DNA from: Glutamicibacter uratoxydans
GTDB lineage: Bacteria; Actinomycetota; Actinomycetes; Actinomycetales; Micrococcaceae
Direction of reading: 5' to 3'
Assembly (NCBI RefSeq): GCF_006539925.1
Contig: NZ_BJNY01000008.1
Location: 124,001-188,000, forward strand
DNA length: 64,000 nucleotides
Positions 59,121 to 62,710 of the stretch are shown here, in pieces. The notes below the pieces were generated by a model that was given only the letters and a program-made list of their open reading frames with translations, was not told the origin of the DNA and ran no database searches. The first letter of the stretch is position 1, and every line of letters begins with the position of its first letter. The translations under genes and the position numbers were made by a program.

Positions 59121-59292
59121 GGCGATCCTCTTTCTACAGCGGTGGGGACTGCCTGGCGCCGCCCCCTGCTGCGAGGCTAACACCGCGGCGGGCATAAGGA
59201 CAGGGTGTTCTTCGGCGGCCAAATTGCTGGACAAGTGCACCCAAAGCGCCTACCCGTGAACCGGGTCGGCGCTCCGGGTGCAGGCTGTCGCC

Positions 59293-60939
59293 CTAGCGGG
59301 AGCTGACCTTTCCGAAGACCCCCGCGATCATGCTGAGCACGATCGGCCGGCAGGCGATCCACGCGCCGGCGATCACCAGCAGGGACAGGGCGAAGAACAG
59401 CAGTCCTGCCCAGTTGTCTGCGTACGCGGCCGGATCGGTGGATCCCTGCGCCGCGTACATGTGGTTCAGGTTGCGCAGCGCTCCGGTGGAGAACACTAGG
59501 ATCACGTGGACGACGATGAACAGCGCGAAGTACAGCATGGTCGGGAAGTGCAGGGCCCGCGCCACCTCGATCGGATACTTCTTGGCCAGCGCCGCGTTCT
59601 TGGGCCAGAAGGCGCTGAGTCTGAAGCCCGTTACCGCCGCCAGCGGGGCGGCGATGAACACCGTGGCGAAGTACGCCAGCTGCTGCAGCGAGTTGTAGTT
59701 GACCCAGCCGTTCTCGGTTGGCCAATCCAAGGTCAGGTACTGCAGCGCCGCCGAAACCGCGTTCGGGAACACCTCCCAGGAAGTCGGCACAATTCTCATC
59801 CAATGCCCGGTGGCGAACAGCAGCACCACGAATACCAGCCCGTTGATGATCCACAGCGCATCAAGGCTCTGGTGCAGCCAGAGGTTGATGCTGACCTTGG
59901 GGCTGCGCTTGGAGGACCAGTAGGCAGGCGGCTTCTTCTGGTGCCGCACCTGCAATCCAGTGCGGATGATCAGCACCATCAGGAAGAAATTGAAGAAGTG
60001 GTTCCAGGCAAGCCAGGCGGGGACGCCCACCGGCGCCGAGTCCGGCAGATGGTACTCGCCCGGGTATTGTGCGATGAATCCGGAGACCGCATCGAAACCG
60101 GCGATCCAGCGCGCCAGCAGAACTACCGCGGTAGCCATGCCCAACGCGCTGAAAGCGCCGAAGATTCCTGCCAGCACCCACTGCTTGGCAGTCAGCGGGC
60201 CGTGGCGCACCGGCTCAGGCTTGGCCGCCGGTGCAGCTGCTGCCTTGGGCTTTTCGGCAGGTTTGGCAGCCGGGGCTGCCACAGAAGCCGCGGGGGCGGC
60301 CTGCTGTGCTGGCGGGGCAGCAGCGGCTGCGGGTTCGGCAGCAACCGAGGCAGCGACAACGGGTTCTTCCAGTGCAGCAGGCGCTGGTGCTGTTTCAATC
60401 ACCGGCTCGACTGCTGGAGTAGGAGCGGAGACCTCTGCAGGGAAGGCATCGAGCGGCGGCCACGGATCGCCGCCCGCCACACGAGGCAGGCCTTGGCGGA
60501 CATCGCCGCGCAGCTCCCCGGTGGGCGCCGGCGCACTTGCTGGCGTGCTGGCTGGTACCGGGAGGACCGGCACGGCGTCCGAAACTGGCTGCTGGACAGC
60601 AGGCTGGACGGATTCTGCCGCCGGTGCCGGTGCAGCAGCGGGCGTGGAGGCCGCCACCTCGGCCGGCGGCCATGGAGCGCCGCCAGGCACGCGGGGCAGG
60701 CCCTGGCGAATACCTGCGGCGGAAGGCGCCGCAGCGGCAGCGGGTTCCGCCGCCGGTGCAGGCTGGGCCGCTGCCGGCGCAACCACCGGCGGTTCGGCAG
60801 CCGGCGCGGCGGCTTGTCCTGCGACGGGTGCTTCTGGCTCTTTTTCGAGCACAGCTGGCTGGGCGATTGCCGGCGGCCAGGGATCGCCCCCGGAAACCCG
60901 GGGCAGGCCCTGCCGAATGGCGCGGGTAGGGGTGCTCAT
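59293..60939 (-). CDS. cytochrome b (FdnI/b561-type) with three-repeat Pro/Ala-rich N-terminal tail
   Basis: A 548-aa membrane protein, third gene of the etf operon (5 bases after etfA). Residues 1-245 are a Pro/Ala-rich tail with the motif RQGLPRVxGGxPWPP at 9-23, 78-92 and 148-162. Residues about 252-545 form a four- to five-helix cytochrome b domain: WNHFFNFFLMVLIIRTGLQ, LHQSLDALWIINGLVF and LHFPTMLYFALFIVVHVILV, whose two His are 14 residues apart as in formate dehydrogenase gamma FdnI, giving heme b ligands. It probably passes ETF electrons to menaquinone; the tail may dock soluble partners. No Fe-S site is present. Confidence 0.83.
   Translation of the reverse strand: MSTPTRAIRQGLPRVSGGDPWPPAIAQPAVLEKEPEAPVAGQAAAPAAEPPVVAPAAAQPAPAAEPAAAAAPSAAGIRQGLPRVPGGAPWPPAEVAASTPAAAPAPAAESVQPAVQQPVSDAVPVLPVPASTPASAPAPTGELRGDVRQGLPRVAGGDPWPPLDAFPAEVSAPTPAVEPVIETAPAPAALEEPVVAASVAAEPAAAAAPPAQQAAPAASVAAPAAKPAEKPKAAAAPAAKPEPVRHGPLTAKQWVLAGIFGAFSALGMATAVVLLARWIAGFDAVSGFIAQYPGEYHLPDSAPVGVPAWLAWNHFFNFFLMVLIIRTGLQVRHQKKPPAYWSSKRSPKVSINLWLHQSLDALWIINGLVFVVLLFATGHWMRIVPTSWEVFPNAVSAALQYLTLDWPTENGWVNYNSLQQLAYFATVFIAAPLAAVTGFRLSAFWPKNAALAKKYPIEVARALHFPTMLYFALFIVVHVILVFSTGALRNLNHMYAAQGSTDPAAYADNWAGLLFFALSLLVIAGAWIACRPIVLSMIAGVFGKVSSR
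60454..60915 (-). repeat. three coding repeats of the RQGLPRVxGGxPWPP motif
   Basis: 45-bp units at 60871-60915, 60664-60708 and 60454-60498 encode nearly identical 15-residue motifs, separated by low-complexity Pro/Ala linkers of about 54 and 55 residues. Conservation of the motif against diverged linkers shows selection on it. Confidence 0.85.
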
Positions 60940-60944
60940 GATGC

Positions 60945-61922
60945 CTACGCCTTGCGTTCTTCCAGCGCCGCGATCAGCTGCGGCACCACCTTGAACACGT
61001 CGCCCACCACGCCGAAGTCCGCGATCTCGAAGATCGGCGCCTCGGCGTCCTTGTTGATGGCCACGATGGTCTTGGCGGTCTGCATGCCTGCCTTGTGCTG
61101 GATGGCGCCGGAGATTCCCAGCGCGACGTAGAGCTGCGGGGACACCGAAACGCCGGTCTGGCCCACCTGGGCGGCATGCGGGACGAATCCTGCATCCACC
61201 GCCGCGCGGGAAGCGCCGATGGCCGCGCCCAGCGCGTCAGCCAGCTGCTCCACCAGCGCGAACTGCTCGGCGCTGCCCAGGCCGCGTCCGCCGGAGACCA
61301 CCTTTGAAGCCGAGCGCAGCTCGGGCCGGGAGGATGCGGATTCGATGCTTTGCAGTTCGGTGACGGTGATTTCCGGCTTGCCGCTGGCCGCCGCCTCAAG
61401 CGCCGCGGCATCCGCCGGCTGGGCTTCGGCCCGCGCCTCGATGCTGCCCACGCGCACGGTAATCACCGGGGCACCGAAGGTCGGCGCGCTGGTGGTGGTG
61501 AAGCTGCCCCCGTACACCGCATGCAGCGCGGTGACGCCGAGCTCGTCGCGCTGTACGCCCACCGCATCCACGCTCAGCGCGCTGCGGGTGCGCACGGCGA
61601 AGCGCGCCGCGACCTCGCGGCTGGTCTCGGTGTGGCCGGCCAGCACCGCCTGCGGCGCAACCAGTGCGGCGGCCGCCTGCAGGGCATCGGCCAGCGGCAC
61701 GACGGGCTTGCCCTCTAGCTCTACGGTGAGCACCCGGATGGCCCCGGCGGCGCTCGCCTGGGCCGCCAGATCCGTTAGCGCGTCGGCAGGGCCTGCCACT
61801 AGCGCCACCGGGGTGCCGACCAGCGACGCGGCGCCGAGCAGCTCGGCATGGTTCTTGGCCAGCACCGGCCCCGGTGCGGTTTCCAGGACAACGAGGATTG
61901 AATCCGCTGCAAAGTTGGACAT
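60945..61922 (-). CDS. etfA: electron transfer flavoprotein subunit alpha
   Basis: A 325-aa FAD-binding ETF subunit (FixB family). The N-terminal Rossmann-like part ([20 protein letters not shown]) pairs with EtfB; the C-terminal FAD domain has [42 protein letters not shown], and [17 protein letters not shown] with the conserved flavin contacts, ending [19 protein letters not shown]. Start 61922 follows GAGGGAAGAG; 11 bases after the etfB stop. Accepts electrons from acyl-CoA or other dehydrogenases. Confidence 0.95.
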
Positions 61923-61933
61923 GTTCTCTTCCC

Positions 61934-62710
61934 TCACACCAGATTGTTCTTGACCAGGAAGTCGGCCAGCGCGCGGCCTGCTTCTCCGTCATCGACCACG
62001 ACGGTTCCCGCCTCACGCGGAGGCTTCTTCGCCACCGTGAGCATGATGGAGCGGGCGGTGTCTGCTGGCAGCGGGTCGACGCCGAGGTCTGCCAGCGTCA
62101 GCACCTCGATGGGCTTCTTCTTGGCGGCCATGATGCCCTTGAAATTCGGGAAGCGGGCATCGGGCAGCGCCTCGGTGATGGAGGCGATGGCCGGCAGCGG
62201 CGTGCTGATTTCGGCGCGGACGCCGTCGAACTCGCGGGTTCCGCTCAGCGCCTCGGCGGAGATCTCGATGGCCGACAGCGAGGTGGCGGCGGGCAGGTTC
62301 AGAAGCTCTGCAAGCATTGCCGGCAGCACGCCGGCCGAGCCGTCGGTGGACATGTTGCCGGCCAGGACCAGATCGTATTCCCCACGGCGCAGCGCGGCGG
62401 CCAGCGCCTCGGCGGTGAGCAGCAGGTCGGCGCCCAGCAGCTGTTCGTCGCTGATGTGGATCGCGGTTCCGGCCCCCATGGCCAGCGCCTTGCGCAGGGT
62501 GCCCTGTGCCGAATCCGGGCCCATGGTCACCGCGGTGATCTCGGTGCCGGCGTTGGCATCGGCATATTTCAGCGCAACTTCCAGCGTGCGCTCGCCGATT
62601 TCATCCAGCACGGCTTCCGAGGCCGAGCGGTCGGCTAAGCCCGTTTCAAGATTCAGCAGGCGGTCTTCACCCGTATCGGGGACCTCCTTGATGAGTACCG
62701 CGATTTTCAT
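61934..62710 (-). CDS. etfB: electron transfer flavoprotein subunit beta
   Basis: A 258-aa ETF subunit (FixA family): N terminus [20 protein letters not shown], the AMP-binding stretch [20 protein letters not shown], and KFP-type recognition loop region [19 protein letters not shown], where the partner dehydrogenase Leu/anchor loop is expected. First gene of etfB-etfA-cytochrome b. AAGGAG stands close upstream of the ATG. The order and the cytochrome partner make it a dehydrogenase-to-quinone route rather than a bifurcating Fix complex, since fixC/fixX are absent. Confidence 0.95.

Follow-up and report, generated by a model that had tools for sequence, protein, structure and literature searches.

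The question raised by this locus is where an electron transfer flavoprotein (ETF) delivers its electrons when the gene that follows its two subunit genes encodes a membrane cytochrome b. The locus lies in a 64,000-nucleotide stretch of the Glutamicibacter uratoxydans contig NZ_BJNY01000008.1 (positions 124,001 to 188,000), here called the window, in a genome of 3.79 Mb and 49 contigs. Three genes on the minus strand, in the order etfB-etfA-cytochrome b and separated by gaps of 11 and 5 bases, make up the operon:

61934..62710, minus strand: etfB, ETF beta subunit, 258 aa (PF01012, 1.1e-34; PDB ETF beta chains, best 6fah_B at 1.4e-30, also 1efv_B)
60945..61922, minus strand: etfA, ETF alpha subunit with FAD domain, 325 aa, ATG start (PF00766, 2e-33, and PF01012, 1.7e-16; best PDB matches are human ETF alpha chains, 1t9g_R at 9.4e-53)
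59293..60939, minus strand: tailed diheme-type cytochrome b, 548 aa, proposed ETF:menaquinone oxidoreductase (PF01292; follows etfBA in 76 of 80 relatives)

The etfB and etfA genes encode a canonical two-subunit ETF, beta plus alpha with its FAD domain. Comparative analysis suggests that the cytochrome is very probably the physiological partner of this ETF, and it is likely to be a dedicated, diheme and Fe-S-free ETF:menaquinone oxidoreductase, whose N-terminal tail motifs would recruit ETF and which would replace EtfD, the known actinobacterial ETF dehydrogenase. Its linkage, its mutual exclusion with EtfD, the lineage of its ETF and its predicted topology point to a conserved ETF dehydrogenase of a new type that is probably functional.

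Conservation of the operon

A scan of genome contigs gave 261 stretches encoding a relative, the best 80 of which were compared; 59 of these were from Microbacterium, and the 80 loci are therefore not independent cases. The nearest named relatives of the window locus were Arthrobacter and Glutamicibacter species. The genes kept the same order and strand in 76 of the 80 relatives, so their adjacency is not a chance juxtaposition, and the operon claimed in the first-pass annotation is confirmed by this conservation together with the coordinates and the Pfam matches. Among the four loci without upstream etfBA, three (L067, L081 and L082) begin at a contig edge and the fourth (L047), from a metagenome assembly, is a second copy that stands alone. 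The gap between etfA and the cytochrome gene had a median of 5 bases in the 76 loci (range -4 to 289, the largest values stemming from starts that a script had trimmed to the first tail motif). A Microbacterium-like operon was also found on a contig labelled Planococcus (L075), probably a contaminated or mislabelled assembly.

Tail repeats and their linkage to ETF

The N-terminal ~240 residues of the cytochrome are alanine/proline-rich and align poorly, except for the repeats of a 15-residue motif with the consensus R[RQ]GLPRxxGG[ED]PWPP, found in three copies in the window protein:

60871..60915, minus strand: tail motif copy 1, RQGLPRVSGGDPWPP, residues 9-23
60664..60708, minus strand: tail motif copy 2, RQGLPRVPGGAPWPP, residues 78-92
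60454..60498, minus strand: tail motif copy 3, RQGLPRVAGGDPWPP, residues 148-162

Three copies were present in 58 of the 80 related proteins, two in 15, one in five, four in one and none in one, the last being L082, whose gene is cut by the contig edge. The regular expression used for the count fixes PR, the second G, W and the first P and restricts four other positions, so that the invariance of all these positions in the count is partly by construction. The same conservation is seen when 77 full proteins are aligned (without L061, L067, L081 and L082, and with about 10 rows whose start was set from the first motif): the repeat positions belong to the columns that are invariant or 90% conserved. 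A motif scan of 1.98 Mb of fetched DNA, which was chosen around these genes and holds some loci twice, gave 267 matches, 235 of them placed in the cytochrome frame by script; by their coordinates, the remaining 32 lie in cytochrome genes with a differently worded core or cut by the locus end. The tail noted in the first-pass annotation, its three 15-residue repeats included, is a genuine and conserved feature. At L110:6045-7346 the tail is a variant whose repeats are all of the short RRxGLP kind, and the ETF next to it is diverged (52-53% identity); this could represent a minimal form of the motif.

The distribution of the cytochrome was then read in 119 genomes sampled from the order. Matches to the core were found in 26 genomes, 22 of them strong (E 3e-88 or better) and four weak (G052, G057, G063 and G095, excluded from the counts). 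The strong matches comprised 13 tailed and nine tailless genes, two of the former being classed by reading since the strict pattern misses them: G071, with degenerate RRxGLP repeats and a diverged ETF, and G097, with one variant copy in a contig-cut gene. The tailed genes adjoined etfBA in 12 of 13 cases, the thirteenth (G097) being cut by the contig end, and no tailless gene adjoined an ETF. Counting tailed genes with a readable upstream region, linkage was thus 12/12 versus 0/9 (Fisher, 3.4e-6). ETF genes were present in 89 of the 119 genomes, including all 13 with a tailed gene and six of the nine with a tailless one.

Mutual exclusion with EtfD

The EtfD query was taken from G072 and matches PDB chain 9ojn_A (1042 residues, 4e-213), which is presumably the M. 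smegmatis EtfD described in PMC13083937. EtfD was detected in 38 of the 119 genomes (E below 1e-100), all of which also encode ETF. Among the ETF-bearing genomes it was present in 0 of 19 with the cytochrome versus 38 of 70 without it (Fisher, 7.7e-6), and the tailed form taken by itself gave 0/13 versus 38/76 (Fisher, 4.4e-4). The eight listed genomes of genus g11 were divided evenly, four having the cytochrome without EtfD and four EtfD without the cytochrome (p 0.029). Weak matches to the query in the cytochrome-bearing genomes G025, G042, G044 and G099 covered the CCG end only, and the CCG proteins read there were LutA- or GlpC-like, without the EtfD membrane domain. The excluded weak-match genome G052 does carry EtfD. 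Exclusivity was examined against EtfD across the sample and against ETF:quinone oxidoreductase (ETF-QO) in the window's own genome only. ETF linkage, co-occurrence with ETF and exclusivity, the genetic properties of an ETF:quinone oxidoreductase, are all found in the tailed form.

The first-pass annotation had proposed looking for ETF-QO or EtfD elsewhere in the genome; this was done with PF05187, PF21162 and the EtfD query, and no EtfD, ETF-QO or FixC-type protein was found there. PF05187 matched 3 of 14 control genomes and PF21162 matched 2 of 14. The sole CCG protein of the genome was LutA-like (the CCG search matches 12 of the 14 controls), and its gene adjoins lutB/lutC-like and lactate permease-like genes, named by reading their translations.

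These results bear on the possibility that the cytochrome is only a membrane anchor and quinone module, and that a separately encoded Fe-S or flavin protein first takes the electrons of ETF, as the CCG domains do in EtfD. Such an arrangement would agree with the characterised relatives considered here, which place Fe-S centres between ETF and quinone (EtfD, PMC13083937; EMO, described as diheme/FeS, PMC8805022). The empty genome search argues against it, and clustering of the neighbouring genes gave no obvious third redox protein, though the largest clusters merge spurious frames; we consider it quite unlikely.

A separate ETF lineage

A tree was built with 23 cytochrome-linked ETF pairs, 12 from the own genome and the sampled genomes and 11 chosen from the 76 contig loci, and 21 other pairs, several of which are partial. 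The linked pairs were monophyletic (support 0.984), a second ETF pair of the own genome fell outside this clade, and G025 (374 residues) stood alone on a long branch. In genus g33, the genomes G038, G083, G097 and G111 have a single ETF pair each, which is the linked one in three of them and in G097 lies on a different contig from the cut cytochrome gene; in a fifth genome, G069, the cytochrome gene is tailless and ETF is absent. The best PDB matches of EtfB are subunits of bifurcating enzymes, 6fah and 5ol2 among them. Bifurcating ETFs have a second FAD site, on the beta subunit, and a low-potential acceptor; the ETF of the operon could conceivably be of this kind.

Membrane core and predicted topology

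The part of the cytochrome that follows the tail is as follows:

59293..60168, minus strand: membrane core, residues 258-548, with an extra helix (TM0), a four-helix PF01292 core (His314, His356, His464 and His478 invariant) and a sixth helix

The Ni_hydr_CYTB family PF01292 was the sole Pfam match. The full window protein scored just below the cut-off of 30.1 bits (29.6 bits, 6.9e-7) and the core alone just above it (31.3 bits), and the family was matched by 25 of 25 core sequences with E up to 0.01. The first-pass reading of a cytochrome without an Fe-S site stands, as no Fe-S domain was found in it. The four histidines were invariant in 24/24 tailed and 9/9 tailless sequences. Their spacing, 42/108/14, is similar to the 39/98/14 of FdnI from E. 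coli formate dehydrogenase N, measured between histidines that we take to be heme ligands, and in both proteins the PF01292 match begins at nearly the same point of the profile. An hhalign comparison made directly against E. coli FdnI gave no match (probability 0.3%), and a search of solved-structure profiles with the core gave nothing significant (best 0.063). The label of FdnI-type diheme cytochrome thus holds for the Pfam family and the histidine spacing; it does not hold for the direct profile comparison, the additional N-terminal transmembrane helix or the predicted topology.

Mean lysine plus arginine counts in 81 sequences were 3.28 ahead of the first helix and 3.37 at the C-terminal end, with 0.28, 7.00, 0.00, 5.02 and 1.01 in the loops taken in order, so that the N side, the second and fourth loops and the C terminus are assigned to the inside and the loops with 0.28, 0.00 and 1.01 to the outside. 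The tail is predicted to be cytoplasmic by the same counts. The N terminus of FdnI is inside, with His18 at the inner side. Because an extra helix precedes the four-helix unit and the charges follow the positive-inside rule, this unit is predicted to be inverted relative to FdnI. The pair His356/His464, equivalent to the electron-entry heme of FdnI, would therefore face the cytoplasm and ETF, and the pair His314/His478 would face outward. Other differences from FdnI are the long tail and the proposed cytoplasmic donor.

The outer loop between helices 2 and 3 (residues 383-420, the DWPTENGWVNYN region) had the highest mean column conservation among the compared regions in the linked set; it was also the most conserved by identity in the tailless set, in which it is largely kept. 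It is taken as part of a putative outer quinone site. The same conservation could suit a general cytochrome b561 that is reduced by ETF or quinol and hands the electrons on to an acceptor outside the cytoplasm at this loop, and the existence of tailless forms in genomes without ETF would fit that function as well. No common secreted partner was seen around eight of the nine tailless genes, whose open reading frames were read by eye and among which shared neighbours were confined to the close relatives L101 and L104, and the loop is equally explicable as a quinone site; a b561 of this kind is considered very unlikely.

The tailless homologues (L101, L104, L107, L109, L111, L112, L113, L114 and L115) all have the four histidines, and their outer loop is largely conserved. 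They were considered as a second ETF system and set aside, with no adjoining ETF and no common partner in the 8 of 9 loci read; two lie ~6.7-6.8 kb from a canonical ETF, so such a role is still conceivable. In these two (L101 and L104, from G005 and G024) a PspA-like gene stands between the tailless cytochrome and the canonical ETF, and the window genome likewise has one close to its canonical ETF (L008).

Pathway context

Upstream genes on the same strand were counted in the 69 loci with more than 4.5 kb of upstream sequence. An acyl-CoA dehydrogenase gene was present in 36, an enoyl-CoA hydratase gene in 48 and a 3-hydroxyisobutyrate dehydrogenase gene in 25, while 21 loci lacked all three. 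The 36 loci with the acyl-CoA dehydrogenase comprised 34 of 53 Microbacterium loci, the Planococcus-labelled contig and one metagenome-assembled genome. The dehydrogenase of L088 is nearest to human ACAD8 (1rx0, 4.9e-132; next 7.3e-91), which we take to be isobutyryl-CoA dehydrogenase, and the 3-hydroxyisobutyrate dehydrogenase passes the HIBADH model TIGR01692. By these matches, the upstream gene set in many Microbacterium loci is that of valine breakdown, a pathway that depends on ETF. The link to branched-chain amino acids guessed in the first-pass annotation is therefore found in many Microbacterium and not in the window's own genus; no valine genes adjoin the operon in the window genome.

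With this context, the tail might bind acyl-CoA dehydrogenases or other enzymes of the pathway, or organise a membrane metabolon, with ETF still delivering the electrons. In many Microbacterium loci the operon comes after genes for isobutyryl-CoA dehydrogenase, a hydratase and 3-hydroxyisobutyrate dehydrogenase, which would favour this function, but the tail accompanies etfBA in the sampled families even without adjacent valine genes, and we regard it as unlikely. That the tail binds ETF itself is fairly likely.

The context also bears on the direction of transfer. A reverse flow, in which menaquinol reduces ETF and thereby feeds a reductase, is difficult to reconcile with the catabolic setting in Microbacterium, valine oxidation, and with the mainly aerobic life of soil actinobacteria of this kind. 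Its precedent is in syntrophs, where enoyl-CoA reduction has been proposed to be fed by EMO together with ETF (PMC8805022), and we find it extremely unlikely here. Transfer from ETF to quinone is probable, and we hold this direction with good confidence.

Proposed mechanism and its weighing

In the mechanism proposed for the cytochrome as an ETF:menaquinone oxidoreductase, acyl-CoA dehydrogenases would reduce the co-encoded ETF, among them the isobutyryl-CoA dehydrogenase of valine breakdown in many Microbacterium. The disordered cytoplasmic tail, with its repeated motif, would hold reduced ETF at the inner membrane face, where the FAD of ETF could pass electrons to the heme near this face (His356/His464). 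From there they would reach the heme near the outer face (His314/His478), and menaquinone would be reduced on that side, so that the membrane potential could pull the uphill step from ETF to menaquinone. We see even chances that the path is outward and electrogenic. The balance is similarly level for the fuller proposal of an unrecognised family, in which electrons would pass from the ETF flavin directly to heme b and along an inverted FdnI-like diheme wire driven by the membrane potential, while the repeat-motif tail fishes ETF from the cytoplasm.

A direct input from ETF to the quinone pool through the cytochrome, with the tail as a tether for ETF, was the central idea of the first-pass annotation. 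It gains comparative support from the lack of EtfD and ETF-QO matches in the genome, the exclusivity between cytochrome and EtfD, the linkage of the tail to ETF, the separate ETF lineage and, in many Microbacterium loci, a setting of branched amino-acid oxidation.

Several points weigh against the proposed function. Tailless homologues with the same core occur in three genomes without any ETF match (G021, G054 and G069), indicating that the core itself is not specific for ETF. In two of the six ETF-bearing tailless genomes (G005 and G024) the tailless gene lies ~6.7-6.8 kb from a canonical ETF pair on the same contig, so the tailless form may also serve an ETF. Neither EtfD nor the cytochrome was found in 32 of the 89 ETF-positive genomes; the order therefore has some other outlet for ETF, which could be in use here as well. 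The second ETF pair of the own genome is a canonical one on contig 15, beside a deacetylase-like gene and without a linked cytochrome. The sample counts and Fisher tests ignore phylogeny, and the mirror-tree correlation between ETF and cytochrome is moderate (r 0.67, 23 loci). Among the loci of Arthrobacter, Glutamicibacter, Agromyces, Microcella and Micrococcaceae whose upstream sequence was long enough, valine genes adjoined the operon in 0 of 14, and the heme geometry is derived from sequence only.

Comparison with known systems

PMC13083937 describes EtfD (Rv0338c/MSMEG_0690, with FadF and DgcB called homologues) as an Fe-S/heme b protein by its cryo-EM structure; the first-pass annotation had listed it with ETF-QO and FixC/X as an Fe-S flavoprotein, which does not apply to EtfD. 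For M. smegmatis EtfD, the same source proposes that Fe-S clusters and one heme b relay the electrons of ETF to menaquinone, and describes a disordered 30 kDa tail with conserved repeats that binds ETF in an AlphaFold3 model. EtfB of M. tuberculosis was recovered by co-immunoprecipitation with EtfD (PMC8593149). PMC8805022 describes the EMO of Syntrophus as an ETF oxidoreductase of the diheme/Fe-S type, operating in a reverse redox loop that is driven by the potential.

The present cytochrome resembles EtfD in being an actinobacterial membrane protein with a proposed ETF-to-menaquinone role through heme b, and the mycobacterial EtfD also has a disordered repeat tail, predicted to bind ETF (PMC13083937). 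EtfD has two [4Fe-4S] clusters and two CCG domains, whereas the cytochrome has none of these and four heme-type histidines instead. The tail is N-terminal in the cytochrome and C-terminal in EtfD, with unrelated motifs, and no homology of the core to an EtfD of this order was detected (hhalign probability 0.2%). Inspection of EtfD C-termini at 24 loci revealed three long repeat tails, one AAPSWE-like (G066, at L160) and two ADPWD-like (G034, at L138, and G080, at L133); the remaining proteins end less than 50 residues past the last aligned domain. These three tails have the same layout as the cytochrome tail and unrelated sequence.

ETF-QO (FixC/FixX), a flavin and [4Fe-4S] protein, shares the proposed ETF-to-quinone function, and its domains PF05187 and PF21162 are not present in the cytochrome. 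The diheme succinate dehydrogenase of Gram-positive bacteria reduces menaquinone; by analogy, it would share an inside-to-outside diheme path that uses the membrane potential, with another donor and another fold family. The window protein may thus be regarded as a PF01292 cytochrome put to use as an ETF dehydrogenase, similar to mycobacterial EtfD in proposed function and tail layout.

Flanking features

One further feature was found next to the operon:

59236-59282, minus strand: strong hairpin 3' of the cytochrome stop codon, probable operon end, without a U tract

Its near-perfect stem has 15 bp. The folded segment (59230-59290) had an energy of -44.9 kcal/mol (z -8.2), with 0 of 200 shuffles equally stable. 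The hairpin was not among the sites listed by a consensus terminator scan, and a promoter scan found none.

On contig 8, beyond the window end, L010:5235-18766 contains PurU, dimethylglycine oxidase-like, FchA, FolD, GbcA/B-like and FdhA-like genes (names from reading translations, except the oxidase), probably a cluster for glycine-betaine demethylation. A role of the ETF in dimethylglycine oxidation was considered and dropped, since the enzyme matches N,N-dimethylglycine oxidase (DMGO; 1pj5, 1248 bits) far better than the dehydrogenase (4pab, 345 bits). Within flanks of at most 8 kb, no DMGO match was seen near the operon in the 80 relatives, and GbcA gave one distant match only (30%, L016).

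Implications

No description of this cytochrome was found among the open-access papers listed, and one may exist elsewhere. If the proposal is correct, it identifies how ETF-dependent dehydrogenases connect to the respiratory chain in actinobacteria in which EtfD was not found, Microbacterium and Glutamicibacter among them. The cytochrome would be, to our knowledge, the first ETF dehydrogenase without Fe-S. It would offer a simple model of electron transfer from flavin to heme, and with it one could test how short repeated motifs recruit a mobile electron carrier. A possible function would also be suggested for the repeat tails of mycobacterial EtfD, which has been proposed as a drug target. 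In the fuller proposal, two unrelated actinobacterial ETF dehydrogenases, this cytochrome and EtfD, would have evolved repeat-bearing, ETF-fishing tails independently.

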